This document shows, piece after piece, positions 44,790 through 57,392 of a DNA stretch of 64,000 nucleotides (positions within the stretch are counted from its first letter, which is position 1; each line of letters starts with the position of its first letter). The position numbers and the translations under genes are program-made. A model generated the notes under the pieces. The model had not been told where the DNA came from. It saw only the letters and a list, made by a program, of their open reading frames with translations, and did no database searches. Source of the stretch: Arthrobacter sp. PAMC25564 (GTDB lineage: Bacteria; Actinomycetota; Actinomycetes; Actinomycetales; Micrococcaceae); assembly GCF_004798705.1 (NCBI RefSeq), contig NZ_CP039290.1:2294001-2358000 (forward strand). The letters are read 5' to 3'.

Positions 44790-47575
44790 TCAGCCCGGGG
44801 CCCGCCGTTGCCTCTGTGCTTTCCGCCGCCGGCTATATCGCCAGAGTTCGTCGGTTCCCCAGACGACGAGGGGGAAGGGGGCGAGGGCCAGGATCTGCCA
44901 TGGTTCGGGCGGGCGGGTGCCGAATATGTCCTGGAGTGGTGGCAGGGTGACCACGGCGGCGGTGAAGGTGATTTCGAAGGCGATGCCCCAAAGCAGGAGG
45001 CGGTTGCTGGTGAGCCCGATTTGAGCCAGGGATGCGGTCTGGGTGCGTGCGGCGACGGCGGTGCCGATCTGGCAGGCGACGATGCCCAGGAAGCTCATGG
45101 TGGTGGCCTGCATCCAGACCTGGTGCAGGGGGCCGGTGCGGGTGTCTGCGCCGTATTGCCAGCCTCCGAGGACAAGGGGGGTGAGGAAGGCTGTGGTCAC
45201 GAGCAGGGCTGAGACTCCGCCGAGCAGGCCCCAGGCGCGGGCGAGCATGGGTCCGTCGATGACGTTTTGTCCGCGCTGGCGCGGTGGCCGGTTCATGGTT
45301 CCGGGTTCTCCGGGTTCTTCGGGTTCGCGGCCGAGGGCGAGGGCCGGGAGGGTCTCGGTGCCGAGGTCGATCGCGAGGATCTGCATGACGGTGAGGGGGA
45401 GGGGGATGTTGGCTCCGGAAGCGGCGTAGATCAGGAAGGGGACGACCTCGGGGTGGCGTGGGCGAAGATGTAGATGATGAATTTTCGGACATTGTCGTAG
45501 ACGCGTCGTCCGGCTTGGACGGCGCTGACGATGGAGGCGAAGTTGTCGTCGGTAAGGACCATGGTGGCGGCTTCGCGGGCGACGTCGGTTCCGGATTTTC
45601 CCATCGCCACGCCGATGTCGGCATGGCGGAGGGCGGGGGCGTCGTTGACGCCGTCACCGGTCATGGCCACGACCTGTCCCAGGTCGCGCAGGGCATCGGC
45701 GATGCGGAGTTTGGCTTCGGGCGAACTGCGGGCGAAGATCAGTTCTTCTTCGGTGTTGAGAAGTTCATCGAGGTCCTTTTCGGGCATCCGGTCCAGTTCG
45801 GCACCGGTGGTGATGCGGATGCCTCGGTCGCCGATGCCTACCCGGGCGGCGATGCCGCGGGCGGTGAGGCCGTGGTCGCCGGTGACGATGATGAGCCGGA
45901 TTCCTGCGGTGTGGCACCGTGCGACGGCGTCGGGGACTTCGGGGCGGGGCGGGTCGAACATTGCGACGAGTCCGAGGTGGGTCAGGTCTCGTTCGGCTTT
46001 CTCACGGGGCAAACCAGCGTCCTCTTGAGAGGTGAGTTCCCGTTCGGCGATTGCCAGGATCCGCAGGCCTTTCTCGGCCCAGCTGTCCACGATCGAGCCC
46101 GTGGCGGCGCGCTCCGCCTGGGCCAGAGGCCGTGCTCCGCCGCCGTCCGTGGCGATCCAGGTGCATAGGGGCAGGAGTTCCTCGGGGGCTCCCTTGCAGT
46201 GGACGCGGATACCGTCGGGCGTGCGGTCGACGGTGGACATGCGCCGCAGGGTCGGGTCGAAGTGGAACTGGGTGAGCCGTTCGACGGCGTGCCGGTCCGC
46301 GGGCACGCCGAGGGTGACGGCGGCGTGCAACAGGGCCAGCTCGGTGGGGTCGCCGCTTTCGTTGCCTGCGCCGTCAATACCGGCGTTGTTGCATGCGACC
46401 GCGGCCGCGGCCAGCCTCACGGGCGGTGAGCCAGGCCCTGCGAATGGTGGTGCGGCGTCCAGGTCGAGGGACCCGCCGGAAGTCCAGGTATTGGTGACGC
46501 GCATACGGTTCATGGTCAGGGTGCCGGTTTTATCGGTGCAGATGACACTGGTCGAGCCCAGGGTTTCGACCGCGGAGATCTGTTTAACCAGGGCCCCCTG
46601 GCGGGCGAGGATGCGCACGCCGACGGCCAGGGCGAGGGTGATGGTTGGGAGCAGGCCTTCGGGGACATTGGCGACGAGCAGCCCGATCGCGAAGTTCAGG
46701 GTGTCGCTCAGGGAAAGGTGGCCGAGAAGAGTGCCTACGGGGATGAACGCGATGCCCATGGCGACGGCGGCGATGGCTATGATCCGCGCGACCCGGGTGA
46801 CCTGCTTTTCGAGCGGGCTCTGGTCGTGGCCCACGCGTTCGGAGAGCGCGGCGATCCGGCCGAGTTCGGTGTGCATGCCGGTGGCAAAGATCACGGCCAA
46901 CGCATCGCCGCCGGTGCAGCTGGTGCCGCTGAAAACCATGTCCGGCGCCTGAAGCAGCGGTCCCTCCGGCGGCCGGCCCGCCGCGCTCCTGAGGACGGGA
47001 AGGGATTCCCCGGTGAGGGTGGAGACGTCCATTTCCACGGAGCCCTCAAGGAGCCGGGCGTCGGCGCTGACACGATCGCCTTCGCGCACCACCAGCACAT
47101 CGCCCGGGACCAGCAGCCTGGCCTGGACTTGCTTCTCCTCACCGTCGCGCAGGACCCGGGCCTGCGGCGGAAGGTAGGCGGAGAGGGCTTCGACGGCCCG
47201 TTCCGCATGGCGTTCCTGGAGGAAAGCGAACCCCGCGTTGAGGAGGATGACCGCGACGATTGCCCCCGCCAGCGCGGCTGATCCGCTGAAATAGCTCAGC
47301 AGCGCCGCAAGCCAGAGCAGCAGTGCGAGGGGGTGCACCAGCTGCCGGACGATCTGGCGCGGCCACTGCAGGCCTCCACGCCGGGTGATCTCGTTCGGCC
47401 CGTACACCACCAGACGCCGTGCCGCTTCGCGCTCCGACAACCCCGCACGGCTCGCCCGCAGGTCACGAAGCACGCGCTGAACAGGTGCCCGCGGGTCCGC
47501 AGACTCACGAAGTTCCTCCGCACCAGGTGAGGAAGCGGACGCTTCGGGCGGGAATGGATCATCATCCGGTTCCAT
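44790..47575 (-). pseudogene. cation-transporting P-type ATPase with one-base frameshift
   Basis: The frame from 47575 encodes 714 residues with [10 protein letters not shown], phosphorylation motif [13 protein letters not shown], hinge [21 protein letters not shown] and transmembrane [14 protein letters not shown], which places it in the P2 (Ca2+/Na+-like) group. At G-run 45450-45453 one base is missing relative to the expected [16 protein letters not shown]; the C-terminal membrane part continues in another frame from [19 protein letters not shown] to 44790. Restored length is about 928 residues, normal. It is either a recent pseudogene or a sequencing error. Confidence 0.88.
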
Positions 47576-47891: not shown

Positions 47892-48371
47892 TCAGGAGTC
47901 GCTGAGTCCGATTCCTTGATCGTCGAGGCAGGGGGAGCGTTTTCCGGCGGGGGTGCCCATGGAGCGGCGGCATACGCAGCGCGGCCCGTTGGCGGCCGGC
48001 ATCGATGACCAGATGAACCGCTGCATTTTGTTGTAGTTTCCGAAGTCCAGCACGGCGCTGTCCAGTCTCGGGGCCAGTTCATGGCTGACGGCCAGGATGA
48101 TTTCTTCGATGCTGTCCTGGCTGAGTCCGGGATCTAGTTCGGGCCCCGTGGAGGCCGGGGTGGTGAGCCGGCAGCGGAGGGATTTTTTGGGTTCGGTCCG
48201 GGAGAAGTACAGCCCCTGTTTGCGGCAGCCGCCTTTCCCCTGATGGCAATACAGGAAGCCACCGAATACCCCGATCATGGCCAGGGCCTCCGCGGTCACG
48301 GTGAAGCTGCGATGCCCGGGAATCCGGGCCACCACGTCATGCATCGTCACCATCTGATGCTGTTCAGCCAT
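47892..48371 (-). CDS. hypothetical Cys-rich protein coupled to the CDF transporter
   Basis: 159 residues from the ATG at 48371, which overlaps the end of the CDF gene by eight bases. The longer open frame is antisense-like run-on and is rejected. Six cysteines occur, in LYCHQGKGGCRKQG, LRCRL, GPRCVCRRSMG and SPCLDD, suggesting metal binding. No family recognised. Its position as third gene of an ArsR-CDF operon suggests a role in metal handling. Confidence 0.65.
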   Translation of the reverse strand: MAEQHQMVTMHDVVARIPGHRSFTVTAEALAMIGVFGGFLYCHQGKGGCRKQGLYFSRTEPKKSLRCRLTTPASTGPELDPGLSQDSIEEIILAVSHELAPRLDSAVLDFGNYNKMQRFIWSSMPAANGPRCVCRRSMGTPAGKRSPCLDDQGIGLSDS

Positions 48372-49500
48372 GGTGGTGGACGTGCGCCGGGTCATCGGGG
48401 ACCGCCTCGCCGTGGCCGGAGGGAGCGGTGACGGGGCGGATGAAAACGCCGTCCAGGTTCGGGAGAGCATGGCCAAGACGGTGCTCGGCGTCCCGGACGA
48501 TCTGTTCGCCGGTTGAGAGGGGCATATCGGCGATCTGGATGCTGGCGTTGCCCTGGAGGCGGTGGCCGATCCAGCGCAGCTGCAGGGCCGGGACGGCCTC
48601 CACGCCGGGGGTCCCGGCGAGGGCGGACCGGGCGCGGTCCAGGAGGTCGGGGTCGATGCCGTCCATCAGGCGCCGGCCGATGCTCCGCATCGTCCCCCAG
48701 AGCAGGATGATGATGGCAGCCGCGATCAGCAGCCCCACGATCGGGTCGGCCAGCGGGAACCCTAGCCAGACTCCTATGACGCCCAGCACCACGGCAAGAG
48801 AGGTGAAGCCGTCCATCCGGGCGTGGACGCCGTCGGCGACCAGGGCCGCGGAGCCGATCTTCCGGCCGATCCGGATCCGGTAGATGGCCACGGCCTCATT
48901 GCCGGCGAAGCCGATCAGGCCGGCGACGGCGACCCATCCCAGGTTGTGGATGGGCTGGGGGTGGATCAGACGGTCGACCGCTTGCCACCCGGCCACCAGG
49001 GCCGAGAGCGCGACGACGCCGATGATGAAGAGTCCGGCCAGGTCTTCGGCCCGGCCGAAGCCGTAGGTGTAACGCCGGGTCGCGGGCCGGCGGGCCAGCA
49101 GGAACGCGATCCACAGCGGCACCGCCGTCAGGGCGTCGGAGAAGTTATGGATCGTGTCAGCGAGGAGAGCTACGGAGCCGCTGATCAGCACCACGATGAA
49201 TTGAAGGACGGTGGTGCCAAGCAGCATGAAGAGGCTGATTTTCACCGCCCTGACGCCCTGTTCACTCGCCTCAAGGGCATCGTCGACGGAGTCCGCGGCG
49301 TCGTGGGTGTGCGGGACGAATAACCCGTACAGGAAGCCCTTGATCCCCGTCGGATGCTCATGGGAATGGCCGTGCCCGTGCCCGTGCCCGTGCCCATGCC
49401 CATGCCCATGGTCGTGGTCATGCCCGTGGTCGTCGTGTCCGTGAGGGTCTGTTTCGAGCGTGGGGTGTGAGTGGGTGCCGCGGTCGTGGGGGGTGCTCAT
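48364..49500 (-). CDS. cation diffusion facilitator (CDF) family transporter
   Basis: 378 residues. The N-terminus is very His-rich (an alternating HG run plus HSHEH) and the C-terminus ends HVHHHG. Six membrane segments follow, with metal-site motifs DTIHNFSDAL in TM2 and DGVHARMDGF in TM5, the HxxxD pattern usual in zinc-type CDF exporters. A cytoplasmic domain lies at residues ~280-350. The start overlaps the ArsR stop (ATGA), so the regulator and exporter are coupled. It probably exports Zn2+ or a similar ion. Confidence 0.92.
   Translation of the reverse strand: MSTPHDRGTHSHPTLETDPHGHDDHGHDHDHGHGHGHGHGHGHGHSHEHPTGIKGFLYGLFVPHTHDAADSVDDALEASEQGVRAVKISLFMLLGTTVLQFIVVLISGSVALLADTIHNFSDALTAVPLWIAFLLARRPATRRYTYGFGRAEDLAGLFIIGVVALSALVAGWQAVDRLIHPQPIHNLGWVAVAGLIGFAGNEAVAIYRIRIGRKIGSAALVADGVHARMDGFTSLAVVLGVIGVWLGFPLADPIVGLLIAAAIIILLWGTMRSIGRRLMDGIDPDLLDRARSALAGTPGVEAVPALQLRWIGHRLQGNASIQIADMPLSTGEQIVRDAEHRLGHALPNLDGVFIRPVTAPSGHGEAVPDDPAHVHHHG
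49366..49412 (-). repeat. hexanucleotide repeat encoding the His-Gly run
   Basis: About seven units of GCCCGT/GCCCAT encode alternating His and Gly near the N-terminus of the CDF transporter. The repeat is in frame, so slippage would add or remove His-Gly pairs without a frameshift. Confidence 0.8.
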
Positions 49501-49862
49501 GATTGGTCCGCGCTTTCGGAGTGGTGATGTCGGGGTGTTCCCCCGAGGGAGTGTTCGGCCTGGAAGATGGCGTCGGCGACGAGCTGGCGGGCGTGCTCGT
49601 TTTCCAGTCGGTAGAAGACTCGTGTTCCATCCTGCCTGGTGGTCACCAGGCGTGCGAGGCGCATTTTCGCCAGATGCTGGGATACCGATGCCGGGGATTT
49701 ATGGACCACCTCGGCGAGCTGGCCGACGGGAAGTTCGCCGTCGCGCAGGGCAAGAATGATCCGCACCCTTGTGGCGTCAGCCAGCATGGCAAACACTTCG
49801 ACAGCCAGTTCCACGTACTGGCTGTCAGGTTCCCGCCCGCATATCGCTTTATCTGCATCCAT
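49497..49862 (-). CDS. ArsR/SmtB family metal-responsive repressor
   Basis: 121 residues. The winged helix is clear: LADATRVRIILALRDGELPVGQL, then HKSPASVSQHLAKMRLARLV and GTRVFYRLENEHARQLV. The C-terminus is His-rich (TPRHHHSE), a likely metal site as in SmtB/NmtR-type sensors. It is the first gene of an operon with the CDF exporter, overlapping it by ATGA. It should repress the operon until metal binds. Confidence 0.92.
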   Translation of the reverse strand: MDADKAICGREPDSQYVELAVEVFAMLADATRVRIILALRDGELPVGQLAEVVHKSPASVSQHLAKMRLARLVTTRQDGTRVFYRLENEHARQLVADAIFQAEHSLGGTPRHHHSESADQS

Positions 49863-49989: not shown

Positions 49990-50019
49990 TTGGCGCGTGC
50001 AGGGAGGGAGGCCTATATT
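49990..50019 (+). promoter_or_regulatory. promoter of the M-box/Nramp operon
   Basis: TTGGCG (49990-49995), 18 bp, TATATT (50014-50019) would start transcription about 10 bases before the riboswitch. Confidence 0.5.
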
Positions 50020-50033
50020 TACTGGGCAAGGTG

Positions 50034-50197
50034 TCGTTCGTTAGCTGAGGCTCCTTCGCGGATACATGCCAGCGACCCCCAACGTCGAGAGACGCCCCGG
50101 GTCAGGACAGGTTCCCCCGGTCTAAGGGGTTGCCCCGATTGGCTCCCGGAACGCCGGGTTCACGCCGTGAAGTGCCAAAGGTCTTACGAGGAGGGGC
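50034..50197 (+). promoter_or_regulatory. M-box (ykoK) Mg2+ riboswitch
   Basis: Conserved M-box segments occur in order: CGTTAGCTGAGGCTCC with GGATAC (50034-50064), CAACGTCGAGAGACGCC (50080-50096), GGGTCA and then GTGAAGTGCCAAAGGTCTTACGA (50167-50189). These match the 5', middle and 3' consensus of the magnesium-sensing M-box. It precedes an Nramp-type gene and an MgtE-domain gene. M-boxes usually turn genes off when Mg2+ is high. Confidence 0.9.
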
Positions 50198-50211
50198 AGT
50201 TGCCGGCCGCA

Positions 50212-50244
50212 GGGTCCGGCCTCCTCCGCGGCGCCGCCGGACCC
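50212..50244 (+). terminator. attenuator hairpin after the M-box
   Basis: GGGTCCGGC (50212-50220) and GCCGGACCC (50236-50244) form a perfect 9-bp stem just after the riboswitch. It is the natural candidate for the expression platform. From 50245 to the gene start I see no other element. Confidence 0.6.
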
Positions 50245-50463
50245 GGAATGGAGGTGGTTACCCGTGAACGATGGTCATAGTCCATCTACCGGTACCGCCT
50301 CCGCGCGGTCCTGAACACAAATTCTTCCCCCGCCGGTCGCTGCTCTGTGCAGGCCGGCATCCTGACCGCTTAGCCAATTCCGGGACCTCTTCCTGTTGCG
50401 CCGGCATCTGTGATGTCCGCGTTCTGCATCCAAAAGGTCTCTACGTTCCGGGAGGACATTCCC

Positions 50464-52221
50464 ATGCCCGCCAACACCCACACCGGTCCCGAGCCCAGCA
50501 CCAATTCCGGGCCGACACCCACACCCCACACTGCCTCATCACCGGCACCATCACCGGCGCCAGCGCCCTCGCCAGTCAGGACTCCAGGCCCGGCAGTGCC
50601 AGCCGGCCCGGCCCCCGCGGCTGTCCTGGACAGCGCCCACATCGGCGACATCAAGGGCGCCTTCGGCACCATCCGGCTCGGTGAGGAATCGCCGGGAAGC
50701 GGCTGGAAGACCCGGGTCAAGACGCTGCTGGCCATTATCGGTCCCGGCCTGATCGTAATGGTCGGGGACAACGATGCCGGGGCCTTCGGGACGTATACCG
50801 AGGCCGGACAGAACTACGGCACGTCGCTGCTGTGGACGCTGCTTTTGCTGGTTCCGGTGCTGTACGTGAACCAGGAAATGGTTCTGCGCCTCGGGGTGGT
50901 TGCCGGCGTCGGACACGCCCGGCTGATCCTGGAACGGTTCGGGAAGTTCTGGGGCGCGTTCAGCGTCATCGACCTGTTCATCCTCAACGCCCTGACCATT
51001 GTCACCGAATTTATAGGCATCAGCCTGGGCCTGGACTATCTGGGCATCCCCAAGGCCGCGGGCGTGCTGGTGGCCGCCGTGGTGATCATCGGCGCGGCCT
51101 CGACCGGGTCATTCAAACGGTTCGAGCGGGTGTGCATGACCCTGGTCGCCGGGTCCTTGCTGCTGGTGCCCATCATCGTCATGGTCCACCCGGACCTGGG
51201 GCAGGTGACCCATGATTTCTTCATCCCCGGGCTCCCTGTCGGTTCAGACCTGTCCACGGTCACGCTGCTGATCATCGGCATCGTCGGCACGACCATCGCC
51301 CCGTGGCAGCTGTTCTTCCAGCAGTCGTACCTGATCGACAAGCGCATCACCCCCCGGTACATGAAGTACGAGAAGGTCGACCTGTGGCTCGGGATCGGGA
51401 TCGTGATCATCGGCGCCGGAGCCATCATGGGGTTCACCGCGGCCACGTTCGCCGGGCACCCTGAATTCGGGAACTTCACCGACGCCGGCGGAGTGGCGGA
51501 CGGCCTGGAAAACTACGTCGGGAAGGCCGCCGGGGTGCTGTTCGCGGTGGCGTTGATCGACGCCTCAATCATCGGCGCGGCCGCGGTCGGGCTCTCCACT
51601 TCCTATGCGCTGGGGGATGTGCTGGGTTTGAAGCATTCCCTGCACCGGAAAATCTCCGATGCGAAAGGCTTCTACGCCGTGTTCGCCGGCATCCTGATCA
51701 TCTCAGCGGTCATCGTCCTGATCCCGGGGGCCCCGCTGGGGCTGATGACCGTCGGCGTCCAGGTCCTCGCCGGTGTCCTGCTGCCCTCGGCCACGGTGTT
51801 CCTGCTGCTGCTGTGCAACGACAAACAGGTCCTGGGCCCCTGGGTGAACGGCAGGGCCACGAACGTCTTCACCGCCCTCATCATCGCAGTCCTGGTGATC
51901 CTCTCCCTCGTCCTGACCGCAGGGGTGCTCTTCCCCGACATGGGCAGCGGGGCGATTATCGGCATCCTCGCGGGCGGGGCAGCCGTCTGCGTCCTGGGCA
52001 CGGCGGCCTACCTGCTCTATGCCAGATTCCGGCCAGGCCCGGGTGCGGCGCCGATCGACCGGACCGGGAGGCAGGACTGGCGCATGCCTCCCCTGGCGCT
52101 GCTGACGGCCCCCAAACTCTCCACCGCCGGCCGGACCGGGCTGACCGTATTGCGGACCTACCTGCTGATCGCCATGATCCTGGTGATCGTCCGTGTGGTC
52201 CAGCTCGCCCTCGGCGGCTGA
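50464..52221 (+). CDS. Nramp-related transporter, probable Mg2+ type
   Basis: 585 residues from the ATG at 50464 after GGGAGG; a Pro/Thr/Ala-rich N-terminal tail of ~75 residues precedes the fold. About 11 membrane helices follow. In TM1 the usual DPGN reads DAGA (residues 104-107), and in TM6 the MPH motif reads APW (279-281), so the Met that selects Mn2+/Fe2+ is Ala. Loss of that Met is known from Nramp-related Mg2+ transporters. With the M-box upstream this points to Mg2+ uptake. The MgtE-domain gene follows 92 bp later. Confidence 0.88.
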   Translation: MPANTHTGPEPSTNSGPTPTPHTASSPAPSPAPAPSPVRTPGPAVPAGPAPAAVLDSAHIGDIKGAFGTIRLGEESPGSGWKTRVKTLLAIIGPGLIVMVGDNDAGAFGTYTEAGQNYGTSLLWTLLLLVPVLYVNQEMVLRLGVVAGVGHARLILERFGKFWGAFSVIDLFILNALTIVTEFIGISLGLDYLGIPKAAGVLVAAVVIIGAASTGSFKRFERVCMTLVAGSLLLVPIIVMVHPDLGQVTHDFFIPGLPVGSDLSTVTLLIIGIVGTTIAPWQLFFQQSYLIDKRITPRYMKYEKVDLWLGIGIVIIGAGAIMGFTAATFAGHPEFGNFTDAGGVADGLENYVGKAAGVLFAVALIDASIIGAAAVGLSTSYALGDVLGLKHSLHRKISDAKGFYAVFAGILIISAVIVLIPGAPLGLMTVGVQVLAGVLLPSATVFLLLLCNDKQVLGPWVNGRATNVFTALIIAVLVILSLVLTAGVLFPDMGSGAIIGILAGGAAVCVLGTAAYLLYARFRPGPGAAPIDRTGRQDWRMPPLALLTAPKLSTAGRTGLTVLRTYLLIAMILVIVRVVQLALGG

Positions 52222-52313
52222 ACCCCTTGGCGGCTGAACAGGCACAGCGTAGATTCCAGATAGGACAGTTATCCCACCCCTTATCCTAGAATTTCCGAAA
52301 GGCACCCCCGAAG

Positions 52314-53600
52314 ATGAGCACCCCCGGCACCACGGCAATACCGGCCATCCGGCTCTCGGCCCTGCTGCGCCGCCCCGTCCTGGACTCCAAAGGCAACCAG
52401 ATCGGGACCCTCGCCGACGCCATCGTCCGCCTCCAAGAAGGTGACTACCCCCGGCTGGCCGGTCTGGTCGTTGCCGTCGGATCCAACCGCTTCTTCGCCC
52501 CGATGGAGAAGCTCGCCGGCATCGAACCCGGCAGCATCCGGCTGCGGACGGCCAAACTTGATCTGCGTCCGTTCACCAGGCGCGAGGGCGAGGTACTGCT
52601 CAAGGAAGATGTCCTTGGCCACCGGCTGATCGACACCGACCACACGGTAATGGTTAAGGCATACGACATCGAACTGCACGACACGTCCACGGGGTGGTCC
52701 GTCACCGGTCTGGACGTGCACAAGCCGCGCTGGTTCGGCATCGACCGGCGGCACGACACGCACCCCTTCCAAGACTGGAACCGGTTCCTGCCCCTCATCG
52801 GTCACGAGGCATCCAGCAAGGCCCGATCCCTGTCCGCCCGGTTCGGGCAGCTGAAACCGGCCGAGATCGCGGACCTCATCGAGGGCTCCTCGGAGAAGGA
52901 ACAGGATGAGCTCCTTGCCCGGGTCCACACGGACCCGGAACTTGAAGCCGACGTCTTTGAAGAACTCGACGAGGACCGCCAGTCGAGAATCCTCAAGGAC
53001 CGCACCGACCAGGAGGTCGCGGACGTGCTGTCCCGCATGCGCGCCGACGACGCCGCCGACGCCGTCATGGATCTCCCGCAGGAACGCCGGACGGGCATCC
53101 TCGCGCTCCTCCCCGGACCCCAGCACACCAAGGTCATGGCCCTGCTCGGCTACCACGACGCCACCGCCGGGGGACTCATGGGCACCGACTACACTGCGTT
53201 GCCGGCCACGGCCACCATTGCCGAGGCACTCGAGAGCATCCGCACCGCCACCACCGAACAACCCGAAGCCCTCACCACGATCTACAGCCTGCACCCGGAT
53301 GGAACCCTCGCAGGGGTGATCGGCCTGGTCCAGGCCCTGCAGGCAGACCCCGCGGCCCTGCTCGGGGACGCCGCCGACCCCGAGCCGGTCAGCGCGACCG
53401 CCGGGGACGACATCATCGACGTCACCACCACCATGGCCGACTACAACATGCTCACCCTTCCCGTCCTCGACGGGCAAGGACGCATCCTGGGCGTCATCAC
53501 CGTTGATGACGCGCTCGAAGCCGCCATCCCCTCCGACTGGACACACCGTGAACCCAACAGGCACACCGCGCGAAACAGCCAGACGGCACCGGGAAACTGA
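52314..53600 (+). CDS. soluble PRC-MgtE_N-CBS protein (channel-less MgtE regulator)
   Basis: 428 residues with no membrane segment. Residues ~12-70 and ~95-150 look like PRC-barrel-type beta domains (LDSKGNQIGTLADAIVRL; DVLGHRLIDTDHTVMVKAYDI). Residues ~175-275 are the MgtE N-domain (LKPAEIADLIEG, RMRADDAADAVMDLPQERR). Residues ~285-405 are a CBS pair starting at ATAGGLMGTDYTALP. MgtE proteins normally carry these as the Mg2+-sensing gate of a channel; here the channel is absent. It follows the Nramp gene, so it may sense Mg2+ for it. Confidence 0.88.
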   Translation: MSTPGTTAIPAIRLSALLRRPVLDSKGNQIGTLADAIVRLQEGDYPRLAGLVVAVGSNRFFAPMEKLAGIEPGSIRLRTAKLDLRPFTRREGEVLLKEDVLGHRLIDTDHTVMVKAYDIELHDTSTGWSVTGLDVHKPRWFGIDRRHDTHPFQDWNRFLPLIGHEASSKARSLSARFGQLKPAEIADLIEGSSEKEQDELLARVHTDPELEADVFEELDEDRQSRILKDRTDQEVADVLSRMRADDAADAVMDLPQERRTGILALLPGPQHTKVMALLGYHDATAGGLMGTDYTALPATATIAEALESIRTATTEQPEALTTIYSLHPDGTLAGVIGLVQALQADPAALLGDAADPEPVSATAGDDIIDVTTTMADYNMLTLPVLDGQGRILGVITVDDALEAAIPSDWTHREPNRHTARNSQTAPGN

Positions 53601-53623
53601 CCGGACATCGCGGGCGAAGCGCC

Positions 53624-54076
53624 ATGAACCAGACACCCGCGACACCGGGCCGGGCATCCAACTACGGCCATACTCCGCGGCCTGACCGCGACCACCGCCC
53701 CGGGCTGCGCACCCTGCTGGTGCCCCGGCTGCTTTCCCGGGGCCTCACCCCGGCCCAGGCAGCCCGGACCACACGCGTACCCGTGCCGCTCGTGAGCCTC
53801 ATCGCCGACCACGAACCCGGCACCCCGACCCCCTCCCGGACATCAGCCCCGCCCCGGCTGACAAGGCCTGCTTCCGTGCCTGTGCCGGTGCGGGGACGAA
53901 AAAAGGCGACCAGAGCGCGGCTGCTGTTCATCGCCGCGATCGCGGCAGGCTGCATCGGCAGCATCCTCTGGCACGAGCCCCTCCTCCCGATCGTCCTGGT
54001 CGCAGCAGGGACCCTGGCCGGCAACAGCCTCCGGGACCTCCTGCCGGCCGGACGCCGGCACGCGCCCAGGACCTGA
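53624..54076 (+). CDS. small HTH-like/two-helix membrane protein
   Basis: 150 residues, 23 bp after the MgtE-domain gene. An N-terminal region contains a helix-turn-helix-like string (LVPRLLSRGLTPAQAARTTRVPVPLVSLI); a basic linker leads to two hydrophobic segments (LLFIAAIAAGCIGSILW and LLPIVLVAAGTLAGNSL). I do not recognise the family. It appears to be the third gene of the M-box operon. The 335 bp that follow, to 54412, show no gene. Confidence 0.6.
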   Translation: MNQTPATPGRASNYGHTPRPDRDHRPGLRTLLVPRLLSRGLTPAQAARTTRVPVPLVSLIADHEPGTPTPSRTSAPPRLTRPASVPVPVRGRKKATRARLLFIAAIAAGCIGSILWHEPLLPIVLVAAGTLAGNSLRDLLPAGRRHAPRT

Positions 54077-54412: not shown

Positions 54413-55819
54413 TCAGTGGCCGGGCATCGGACCGGCTGGGGTCTTCCGGTCCGGACTGGCCACAGTTTCTTCTGCCTCTGTCGTGAGCGGGCCGGTTGCG
54501 TGGGGTCTGCGGGCGGCGTCGCTGATGCGCAGCAGGAGGGCCACGATGATCCAGTTCGCCAGCAGGGAGGAGCCTCCGGCGGAGAGGAACGGGGTGGTCA
54601 GCCCGGTGAGCGGGATGAGACGGGTGACGCCTCCCATGATGATGAAGCATTGCAGCGCCATGGCGAAAGACAGGCCGCAGGCCAGCAGTTTCCCGAACGG
54701 GTCCCGGGTCCCGAGGGCGGCCCGGAACCCGCGGGTGAAGAGCAGTATGTAGAGGCTGACGATGGCAACGATGCCGGCCAGACCCAGTTCTTCCGCGAGG
54801 GAGGCGACGATCATGTCGCTGTTGGCGAAGGGCACCAGGTCCGGGCGCCCCAGGCCCAGGCCTTCGCCGAGCAGGCCGCCGGAGGCCATCCCGAACAGAC
54901 CCTCGACAATCTGGGCGCTCCCGCCCGGGAAGCGTTCGTAGACAACCGGGTCGAAGGCGTTGACCCAGGCGTCGATGCGCAGACTCACATGCGGGAATAT
55001 CTTAGCCGCGGCATAGCCGCCGCCTGCCATGAGGACCAGTCCGAGGAGCAGCCAGCTGCCCCGGCTGGTGGCGACGTAGATCATGACCATGAACAGGCCA
55101 AAGAAGAGAATGGACATGCCCAGGTCGTGCTGGAAGACCAGCACCCCGACGCTGACGGCCCAGGCAGTCACCATCGGCCCCATGTCCTTGACGCGGGGGA
55201 ATTGCAGGGGTCCGATTTTCCTGCCGGCCAGCAGGATCAGGTCCCGGTTGGCGGACAGGTATCCGGCGAAAAAGACCCCCAGGGTGATTTTGACGATTTC
55301 TCCGGGCTGGAACTGCAATGGGCCCAGACGGATCCAGACGCTGGCACCGTTGATGTCACCGGCGGAGACACCGGGAACCAGCGGCAGGATCAGCAGCACG
55401 GCGCTGACGGCCAGGGAAATGAACGTGTACCGACGCAGCAATCGGTGGTCCTTGAGAAACCAGAGGACGGCGGCGGCGATGAGGACGGACACGGCCGTCC
55501 ACTTGAGCTGGTTGCCTCCGGCGTCGGTCCCTGCGGCCGTATCCAGGCTTTGGATCATCGCGATGCCGATGCCGTTCAGGGCCACCACGATCGGAAGGAT
55601 CACGGGGTCCGCGTAGCTCGCCCGCACCCGCAAAACAACATGGAACACCGCAGCCAGAACGGTCAGGGTTCCCGCCTGGAACCAGAACCCCGAACCCAGG
55701 GCCTCGTTCCTGTCCAGGCTGACCATCGCGCTGGCACCGATCCCGATGATCAACGCCACAAGCAGCAAGAGGGCCTCGACATTCCTGCGCGGCTTCACGA
55801 CGGCGTTCTGCTGGCTCAT
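54413..55819 (-). CDS. FtsW/RodA/SpoVE family (SEDS) protein, RodA-like
   Basis: 468 residues, about ten membrane helices. SEDS signatures are GASVWIRLGPLQFQPGEIVKITLG, FANSDMIVASLAEELGLAGI and TPFLSAGGSSLLANW. SEDS proteins polymerise glycan strands from lipid II with a partner penicillin-binding protein. None is encoded here, and the gene is not in a division cluster. It is divergent from a second SEDS gene, with a 349-bp shared region. It may be an accessory copy for stress or growth state. Confidence 0.9.
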   Translation of the reverse strand: MSQQNAVVKPRRNVEALLLLVALIIGIGASAMVSLDRNEALGSGFWFQAGTLTVLAAVFHVVLRVRASYADPVILPIVVALNGIGIAMIQSLDTAAGTDAGGNQLKWTAVSVLIAAAVLWFLKDHRLLRRYTFISLAVSAVLLILPLVPGVSAGDINGASVWIRLGPLQFQPGEIVKITLGVFFAGYLSANRDLILLAGRKIGPLQFPRVKDMGPMVTAWAVSVGVLVFQHDLGMSILFFGLFMVMIYVATSRGSWLLLGLVLMAGGGYAAAKIFPHVSLRIDAWVNAFDPVVYERFPGGSAQIVEGLFGMASGGLLGEGLGLGRPDLVPFANSDMIVASLAEELGLAGIVAIVSLYILLFTRGFRAALGTRDPFGKLLACGLSFAMALQCFIIMGGVTRLIPLTGLTTPFLSAGGSSLLANWIIVALLLRISDAARRPHATGPLTTEAEETVASPDRKTPAGPMPGH

Positions 55820-56168
55820 ATACTGCCTCTTTCCGCGTGGGAAACACTAGTCGGGGCCCGGTTGCCCGGCGGTTGACCGAACAATGAGCCAGGTTGGTAA
55901 CACCGTCTTCGGACCGCGGCAACAGGCGTCGGGCAGGCCCCATTCTACTAGGGACCGGGCCGCCGGCTGGCCGTCCTCTTGTACGGGGTGCAGCGGACCA
56001 CCGGAATCCGGCGCCGGCGCTGAACCTGAGGAACCGTCCGACACGGACGCGCAGCGCCCGAGGTCGGCAATCGGGACGGACAGAGGACGTATCGTTTTTG
56101 GGTGCCGATTGTCCGCGCGACGGACCGGCGCGGGGACCAGAGCCGGACGGAAGCCACGGAGCAATGAG
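55820..56168. other. divergent promoter region of the SEDS pair
   Basis: 349 bp between two divergent SEDS genes. It must hold two promoters, but I could not settle on one. The long frames through it are continuations of the SEDS frames. Confidence 0.4.
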
Positions 56169-57392
56169 ATGATGACCGCAACAAAGAAACCGCTTCCGCA
56201 CAAGACCCTGCCGGGGCGTTGGTCGGGCCGTATCAGAGGGTGGCTGGCGGACGAATCCGCGGACCGTCAGCGGCCGGTCATCCTGGCCGTGGTGCTGACG
56301 CTCGCGGCGATCGGCCTGGTCGAGGTCGCCTCGGCTTCCTCGGTAGAGTCCGTCGCCTCCGGGGTCAACCCCTATGATCTTCCCTTGAAACAAGGCATGT
56401 GGACCCTCGCCGGGGTCGTCATCATGCTGGTCCTTGCAGGGTTGCCGGTCCGTTATATCCGGAAACTGGCATGGCCCATGCTGATCGCCGCCACCATCGC
56501 CCTGGTCCTGGTTTTCACGCCGCTGGGCATGACGGTCAACGGCAACCGGAACTGGCTGAACGTGGGCGGGTTCACCGCCCAGCCCTCGGAGTTTGCCAAA
56601 CTCGCGCTCATCGTCTGGGCTGCCGCCGTGCTGTCCCGGAAGCAGAAATTACTTGGCCAATGGAAGCACGCGGTCATTCCTCTGCTGCCCGTGGGCGCGG
56701 TCATCATGGCACTCGTCGCCCTTGGCCATGACCTGGGCACGACCCTGATCATCATGATGATCCTTGCCGCCACCTTGTTCTACGGGGGCATTCCGATGAA
56801 GGTCTTCGGGGTGGCCGCGGCGGCCTGCGCCGTGGCGGCACTGGTCCTGGCCGCGACCAGCGGCAATCGGATGGGACGGATCTTTTCCTGGCTCGGGATG
56901 GGCTCCACGGAAGACTCGCAGGGACTGGGCTACCAGGCCCTGAACGGCCAATACGCGTTGGCATCCGGTGGCTGGTTCGGGGTGGGACTCGGGCAAAGCC
57001 GGCAGAAATGGAACTGGATCCCCGAAGCGCACAACGACTTCATCTTCACCATCCTGGGGGAAGAACTGGGCCTGGCGGGCACCTTGCTGGTCCTCGGACT
57101 CTTCGCCATCCTCGCTGTCGCCGTGTTCAAGACCATCGCCCGGACCCGGGATGCTTTCGCCCGAATTGTCTCGTGCAGCGTCATCACCTGGATCATCGGA
57201 CAGGCCATCATCAACATCGCCATGGTCAGCGGCCTGCTCCCCGTCATCGGAGTCCCGCTGCCCTTCATCTCCTACGGCGGCTCTGCCATGGTCTCCTCGC
57301 TGGCCGGCATCGGCATGATCCTCGCCGTCACCCGCACCAACCAGAACGCCGAAGACGCCCGGATGTCCCGGCAACCGGCCCGGAGTTCCTAA
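56169..57392 (+). CDS. FtsW/RodA/SpoVE family (SEDS) protein, FtsW-like
   Basis: 407 residues from the ATG at 56169 with GGAG upstream; a much longer upstream frame is rejected because the SEDS fold begins after RQRPVILAVVL. FtsW text includes NGNRNWLNVGGFTAQPSEFAKLA, EAHNDFIFTILGEELGLAG and PFISYGGSAMVSSL. It would polymerise septal glycan from lipid II. Being outside a dcw cluster, it is probably a second FtsW copy. No PBP partner is adjacent. Confidence 0.9.
   Translation: MMTATKKPLPHKTLPGRWSGRIRGWLADESADRQRPVILAVVLTLAAIGLVEVASASSVESVASGVNPYDLPLKQGMWTLAGVVIMLVLAGLPVRYIRKLAWPMLIAATIALVLVFTPLGMTVNGNRNWLNVGGFTAQPSEFAKLALIVWAAAVLSRKQKLLGQWKHAVIPLLPVGAVIMALVALGHDLGTTLIIMMILAATLFYGGIPMKVFGVAAAACAVAALVLAATSGNRMGRIFSWLGMGSTEDSQGLGYQALNGQYALASGGWFGVGLGQSRQKWNWIPEAHNDFIFTILGEELGLAGTLLVLGLFAILAVAVFKTIARTRDAFARIVSCSVITWIIGQAIINIAMVSGLLPVIGVPLPFISYGGSAMVSSLAGIGMILAVTRTNQNAEDARMSRQPARSS

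Follow-up and report, generated by a model that had tools for sequence, protein, structure and literature searches.

A Micrococcaceae M-box operon with an NRMT-like transporter and a separate MgtE-like protein, and a leader uORF that recurs in actinomycetes

Known M-box systems and the Arthrobacter locus

Operons in which an M-box Mg2+ riboswitch precedes an SLC11 (Nramp-related) transporter, NrmT, and a separate MgtE-N-like gene have been in print since 2014, and cytoplasmic feedback was already proposed for them (Shin et al., 2014; PMC4072509), the role of the MgtE fragment not being demonstrated in the available part of that paper. Here we describe such a locus, probably a Mg2+-starvation operon under an M-box, with an upstream open reading frame (uORF) in its leader followed by genes for a transporter, a sensor-like protein and a third small protein. 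It lies in a 64,000-nt stretch of Arthrobacter sp. PAMC25564 (contig NZ_CP039290.1, positions 2,294,001 to 2,358,000), hereafter the window, whose own numbering is used throughout. The uORF recurs behind M-boxes in several actinobacterial groups: Micrococcaceae, Streptomyces-type and others. The M-box/NrmT/MgtE-fragment core is not new, and the 2014 paper covers the M-box control of Nramp-related importers that an earlier note on this DNA had given as known. The additions are the uORF recurrence across actinomycetes, a DxxA transporter group and unusual cargo genes.

Compared with the NrmT operons, as far as these are described in the available part of Shin et al. (2014; PMC4072509), the window shares the M-box, the SLC11 transporter and the separate MgtE-N-like gene. 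It differs in that PRC and CBS domains are noted in the latter, and in having a third gene for a helix-turn-helix (HTH)-like/membrane protein, a uORF-type leader and a DxxA motif in the first transmembrane segment (TM1).

The leader resembles the translational M-box of mycobacteria, which has a conserved uORF with proline at position 7 (uORF2/Rv1805A), the peptide being called mycobacteria-specific in the available part of the report (D'Halluin et al., 2026; PMC12810186). Both leaders have a Shine-Dalgarno (SD) element, SD1, at the aptamer end, a pyrimidine anti-SD, a second SD (SD2) and a short uORF with Pro7. Unlike the published case, the window has a Micrococcaceae host and a transporter operon as cargo, and its switching is proposed by analogy. 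Literature searches for an M-box leader peptide in actinobacteria or a magnesium riboswitch uORF returned nothing besides this mycobacterial paper.

Anatomy of the operon and its leader

The elements of the operon are, from 5' to 3':

49990..50019, forward strand: promoter-like site TTGGCG-18-TATATT, ending 10 bases 5' of the aptamer (consensus match only)
50030..50200, forward strand: M-box Mg2+ riboswitch aptamer, full length (Rfam RF00380, 117.4 bits, gathering score 44, E 1.4e-25)
50188..50196, forward strand: SD1, SD-like GAGGAGGGG, partly within the 3' strand of P1 (read from the sequence against the Rfam alignment)
50220..50227, forward strand: candidate anti-SD CCTCCTCC, pairing with SD1 in the minimum free-energy structure of the free leader
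50250..50257, forward strand: SD2, strong Shine-Dalgarno GGAGGTGG of the uORF
50264..50314, forward strand: uORF with GTG start, 16 codons, VNDGHSPSTGTASARS
50464..52221, forward strand: SLC11/Nramp transporter P0001 (Pfam Nramp, E 1.7e-81; mechanical start also at 50410)
52314..53600, forward strand: soluble PRC-MgtE_N-CBS protein P0002, 92 bp 3' of the transporter gene
53624..54076, forward strand: small protein P0003, 150 aa, 23 bp 3' of the P0002 gene

The M-box named in the earlier note scores far above the RF00380 threshold. It is the sole Rfam match above threshold in the window and the single M-box found in a search of the 4.17-Mb genome. The note had also described an Nramp-family transporter lacking the Mn-selective Met, a soluble PRC-MgtE_N-CBS protein and a two-helix HTH/membrane protein, spaced by 92 and 23 bp; all three were recovered as described and the spacings are exact. 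The note did not mention the leader uORF.

Between 49500 and 54400 we found one promoter-like site (shuffled sequences average 0.4) and no terminator-like site (shuffles give 1.9). M-boxes are mostly platforms for intrinsic terminators, a property not needed for membership of the family, whereas no intrinsic terminator was found for the window M-box in this interval.

SD1, anti-SD, SD2 and uORF stand in the order of the mycobacterial model, in which GAGGAGGGG would take the position of SD1 or anti-anti-SD. The free window leader folds at a z-score of -2.48, with SD1 paired to CCTCCTCC and SD2 paired inside the uORF. A Mg2+-driven switch between SD1:anti-SD and anti-SD:SD2 pairing is our candidate model, its direction being suggested by the mycobacterial case. 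In a folding test, mean SD2 openness was 0.285 with SD1 free and 0.232 with P1 formed (n = 68, p = 8e-4; from 74 leaders, four Nramp leaders were dropped that had no SD in the script's window and two duplicates were removed). Compared leader by leader, SD2 was opener by more than 0.1 with SD1 free in 18 of the 68 and less open in 4. Complementarity between SD and anti-SD was modestly enriched in the 26 Micrococcaceae Nramp leaders, at or just above the highest mean of 100 shuffles. It lay within the shuffle range for all 70 leaders together, and also for those numbered L145 and above (n = 19), which are inferred to be from Mycobacteriaceae.

Recurrence of the uORF in actinomycete leaders

Under our calling rule, the 92 fetched M-box loci gave 74 short uORFs, of which 63 remain when those with identical first 30 nt are merged. 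Nine further loci continue directly into a long ORF that is MgtC-like or of another type (identity confirmed by Pfam for L094), and nine have no call. Positions 4–6 of the uORFs are dominated by Gly, Asp/His and Ser. A strict form of this motif, [GS][DHG][SK], is present in 37 of the 63 distinct uORFs, in none of the 63 in either other frame and at 43 of 18,400 random positions. Proline stands at position 7 in 29 of the 63, as in the window (VNDGHSP7).

With the named loci added, the set grew to 120 leaders, 118 of them distinct and complete; all come from actinomycete M-boxes, with no Bacillota M-box leader among the controls. An SD plus start is present in 110 of the 118 and absent in 8. The nucleotide motif for the Gly-Asp/His-Ser core occurs in 77 of the 118 and in 16 of 9,200 random 36-nt windows. 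It is in frame with the start in 76, at a distance of 9 nt in 62 and of other multiples of three in 14, so that distances span 3–27 nt in steps of 3; in the sole out-of-frame leader (L213) another start is in frame. Both core motifs were derived from the leaders on which they were counted, and these counts are not independent because the leaders share descent.

Streptomyces-type leader peptides read like MDCSSPGHSRP, and a uORF on a Mycolicibacterium plasmid reads MSPSDSPYP. The string AGTCCGGG was found in 17 named M-box leaders and is in frame with an SD-linked start in 16, at 12, 15, 18 or 21 nt; the exception, L203 on the minus strand, is out of frame. Fifteen distinct Micrococcaceae uORFs of 13 residues show an ungapped identity of 0.74; the corresponding values are 0.43 for the upstream sequence and 0.34 for the 42 nt that follow, both flanks being lowered by indels. 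The recurrence, as read from leader sequences, contradicts the published mycobacteria-specific status of the peptide. As the uORF recurs in Micrococcaceae, Streptomyces-type and other actinomycetes, the place to look for its function is general Mg2+ control.

A cluster of M-boxes was observed in Actinacidiphila oryziradicis (L203), where three matches lie within 12 kb.

The transporter P0001

The best PDB match of P0001 is EleNRMT (7qia; E 4.7e-52), the runner-up following at 3.1e-20. NRMTs are defined by the motif pair DxxG-TxxA/T, and roles in the proton path of SLC11 transporters are ascribed to His residues (PMC8806188, available part). TM6 of P0001 reads GTTIAPW and holds the TxxA/T motif (T276-T-I-A279), Thr276 and Ala279 aligning with Thr224 and Ala227 of EleNRMT; the Mn-selective Met is replaced by Ala279. 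The proton-path His positions align with Trp281 and Gln286. P0001 and EleNRMT thus share TxxA in TM6, the lack of a Met ligand and Trp for the first His, as far as EleNRMT is described there, and P0001 differs in Ala107 for Gly58 and in a longer N-terminal extension. Since TM1 is DNDAGA (D104-A-G-A107), that is DxxA instead of DxxG, we call P0001 NRMT-like. It is expected to carry hydrated Mg2+. The other Nramp protein of the genome is distant (27% identity) and retains DPGN and MPH.

DNDAGA is found in all 32 Micrococcaceae M-box loci that carry the transporter gene, and DNDAGG in all six such loci of another family (f11). Beyond the Micrococcaceae, a genome scan yielded 529 confirmed relatives, of which we took the best 80 (40 labelled Actinomycetota and 40 labelled Proteobacteria). 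A DNDAGA copy is present in all 80 of these named loci, one of which additionally has a DNDAGG copy; this sample leans toward DNDAGA because its members were picked by similarity to P0001. The motif sets apart Mg-type SLC11 transporters with DxxA, and some of these are plasmid-borne. Relatives of the transporter occur in 43 plasmid records at E ≤ 1e-60. The closest (91.6%) is carried by a conjugative plasmid of Arthrobacter sp. FW306-05-C; its locus includes an M-box, and the uORF there departs from that of the window at a single residue.

In one genome (G078, locus L016) a second Nramp-like gene, ∼33% identical, lies divergently upstream of the M-box.

The MgtE-like protein P0002 and the third protein P0003

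P0002, hereafter also the sensor, matches the Pfam families MgtE_N (1.3e-19), CBS (2e-10) and, weakly, PRC (8.3e-05). It has neither a Pfam match to the MgtE membrane channel nor a hydrophobic segment. The AlphaFold2 model (mean predicted local distance difference test score, pLDDT, 80.9; predicted template modelling score, pTM, 0.54) suggests two PRC-type barrels, an MgtE_N helical domain and a CBS pair. The top ten Foldseek matches of the model are all MgtE structures (best 1.9e-18), at a root-mean-square deviation of 13–15 Å, which means that the domains match MgtE while their arrangement does not and that the overlay is local only. Like the MgtE cytosolic domain (2yvy, 2oux, 8gpv), P0002 has MgtE_N, a CBS pair and most of the acidic residues; it differs in lacking a channel domain, in its N-terminal PRC part and in being a separate protein.

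By our own numbering of the alignment, D213, D245, D249, D366 and D399 of P0002 correspond to E59, D91, D95, D214 and D247 of Thermus thermophilus MgtE (TtMgtE), residues which we take to bind regulatory Mg2+ between the N and CBS domains. Among 27 homologues of P0002, D245, D249, D366 and D399 never vary, and at least 90% retain D213.

In the model of P0003 (mean pLDDT 67.2, pTM 0.31), residues 28–63 form three short helices, a block with pLDDT near 90, and residues 92–116 and 120–139 form two longer ones, within which lie the two hydrophobic segments. P0003 matched none of the families in Pfam and NCBIfam, and Foldseek gave no match at E ≤ 0.001, many of its weak top matches being HTH DNA-binding domains. 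On these features we describe P0003 as an HTH-like/membrane protein.

A protein database search gave 12 relatives (E ≤ 0.001), and a profile of 12 rows was used for the genome searches. These found P0003 in 5 of 240 family genomes and in 1 of 396 phylum genomes, the latter being that of the window itself; among the genomes searched it was detected in Micrococcaceae only. All five family matches are in M-box operons: four lie behind the gene for the sensor in an Nramp operon, and the fifth (L095) follows a gene for a full-length MgtE with channel domain. The genus set adds L020, where P0003 again follows the sensor, and L023, where a relative encoded on the opposite strand adjoins an M-box without recognised cargo. 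On plasmids there was no match at E ≤ 1e-5. The third small ORF of the Arthrobacter sp. FW306-05-C plasmid operon was considered as a relative of P0003 and rejected, having no similarity.

Conservation of the operon

M-boxes were surveyed with strict filters that lose weak matches, and were found in 11 of 101 genus, 32 of 245 family and 26 of 394 class genomes. Within the genus, these 11 are exactly the genomes in which the transporter is found at E ≤ 1e-60, an association that is more than chance. Of 56 M-box loci in Micrococcaceae, 32 contain the transporter, and one of these is cut by a contig end, leaving 31 assessable loci. The sensor gene lies directly 3' of the transporter in 24 of the 31, with 67–213 bp between match ends; the gene order M-box-Nramp-sensor, for which the earlier note had proposed a neighbourhood survey, is therefore conserved in this family. 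P0003 is present in 5 of the 24 operons with a sensor. In the remaining assessable loci an LCP (LytR-CpsA-Psr) gene is found instead of the sensor (4/31), or neither gene is (3/31). LCP cell-wall genes and the HTH-like/membrane protein widen the range of M-box cargo.

LCP genes replace or follow the sensor in L017, L018, L019, L021, L014 and L015, and in L102, L108 and L114 an M-box without transporter is followed by another short gene and then an LCP gene. The LCP identity was verified by Pfam for L017 and L114.

Among the 80 named relatives, an M-box lies at most 700 bp upstream of the transporter (our own nhmmer profile) in 25 of the 40 labelled Actinomycetota and in 1 of the 40 labelled Proteobacteria. 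A sensor gene is found within 600 bp in 13 of the former 40 and 3 of the latter 40. The three sensor loci labelled Proteobacteria stem from metagenome-assembled genomes and could reflect mis-binning. A MgtC-like gene (query identified by Pfam MgtC) accompanies the transporter at 20 of the 80 loci, half of which (10) lack an M-box, and in 17 of the 20 it is downstream on the same strand.

Proposed mechanism and alternative explanations

The observed anatomy, domain make-up, operon conservation and in-frame uORF recurrence lead us to favour the following reading. At low cytosolic Mg2+ the M-box aptamer would loosen, the leader would be translated from the strong Shine-Dalgarno into the 16-residue uORF, and transcription would then continue into the transporter, the MgtE-like sensor and the HTH-like/membrane protein. 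At high Mg2+, P1 would close over SD1, the uORF start would be masked and the untranslated leader would be exposed to Rho. The transporter, a Met-less and His-less SLC11 protein near the NRMT importers, would move hydrated Mg2+, and the sensor, once expressed, would probably tune uptake or Mg2+ buffering, putatively by gating the transporter. Mg2+ transport, the direction of switching, the part of Rho and the roles of sensor and third protein are thus what the model proposes.

Several findings weigh against this reading. As for the metal, the transporter could import chiefly Mn2+ or another divalent metal, the M-box then linking the operon to general divalent-metal status. In the available part of Shin et al. 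(2014; PMC4072509), the Acidobacterium capsulatum NrmT, which has an MgtE-like neighbour, resembled a Mn2+ transporter, giving full rescue with Mn2+ and rescue with Mg2+ only at low millimolar Mg2+. The TM1 DxxA of P0001 deviates from the DxxG of NRMTs, and ArsR/SmtB and CDF (cation diffusion facilitator) genes lie divergently upstream in the window. We nevertheless think Mn2+ import unlikely, given that neither the soft Met ligand nor the proton-path His is present in P0001, that another Nramp in the genome is of the DPGN/MPH type, that all 11 genus genomes with the transporter gene have an M-box, and that MgtC-like genes are neighbours of transporter loci. As for the sensor, P0002 may never contact the transporter and instead act free of it, as a sensor of Mg2+ or a nucleotide or as a Mg2+ buffer, in the service of something else. 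It belongs to a large family, with 4,531 of 7,999 scored candidates matching at E ≤ 0.001, a second PRC-MgtE_N-CBS protein (34% identity) is encoded elsewhere in the genome, and an LCP gene can take its place. The favoured reading is also weakened by Ile and Asn in P0002 at the positions of E216 and D226 of TtMgtE, and by a co-expressed A. capsulatum MgtE-N fragment having given no better rescue (PMC4072509, available part). Moreover, the sensor gene is non-adjacent in 64 of the 80 named relatives. With adjacency in just 16 of 80 the sensor is not an obligate co-encoded subunit, and an obligate three-protein complex as a general rule was rejected on this count and on the presence of P0003 in so few sensor operons. 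The three-part uptake complex of the earlier note falls in its obligate form, while its anatomy and conserved order stand. Against a free sensor speak the position directly 3' of the transporter in most Micrococcaceae loci and the homology of P0002 to the MgtE module, which gates its channel as stated in the available part of PMC4072509. We rate a free sensor at a little under an even chance.

The leader is open to a similar doubt, since the uORF may encode no functional peptide and be an RNA element at the ribosome-landing site that merely keeps ribosomes on the leader. In 43 of the 63 distinct uORFs Ser6 is encoded by AGT, a hint of constraint on the RNA itself. In three of four uORF groups, variability at codon position 3 does not exceed that at position 1, and just two of the four have a larger synonymous fraction in the uORF frame than in both other frames; neither codon-position nor synonymous/non-synonymous tests found a clear excess of synonymous change in the uORF. 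The proposed pairing switch is weakened too, as SD2 openness with a shuffled SD1 was 0.264 and the free SD1 did no better (p = 0.17 overall, p = 0.60 for Nramp leaders alone), and in the window a shuffled SD1 gave the most open SD2 (0.29), ahead of the free SD1 (0.17) and of P1 formed (0.08). A coding role is favoured by start-to-motif distances that are multiples of three in 76 of 77 leaders, by AGTCCGGG being in frame in 16 of 17 although some of these leaders have other nearby starts out of frame, and by the higher identity of Micrococcaceae uORFs than of their flanks. On balance, a pure RNA element seems to us a serious prospect, if the somewhat weaker one. A bolder extension of the favoured reading, which we regard as rather doubtful, is that an ancient Gly-Asp/His-Ser-Pro leader peptide forms a second Mg2+ checkpoint deciding whether polymerase passes Rho, with P0003 as an M-box-linked regulator. 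If so, uORF translation or the nascent chain would control Rho passage into the Mg2+ importer and related genes, and P0003 would tie membrane Mg2+ status to transcription.

Neighbouring genes

The gene directly divergent from the M-box is:

49497..49862, reverse strand: ArsR/SmtB-type metalloregulator, directly divergent in 6 of the 11 genus loci with the transporter

Given this recurrence, promoter activity of the operon may respond to another metal-sensing protein as well. Together with a CDF exporter the regulator gene occupies 48364–49862 on the reverse strand. Further upstream, at 45431–47575 (reverse strand), lies the gene of a 714-aa P-type cation ATPase, possibly truncated, in which Pfam gave no match to the C-terminal transport domain. 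Downstream of the operon, an adjacent divergent pair of FtsW/RodA-family genes is found at 54413–55819 (reverse strand) and 55884–57392 (forward strand), and a tRNA-Pro prediction at 54792–54885, inside the FtsW/RodA-like gene, was taken as a false positive.

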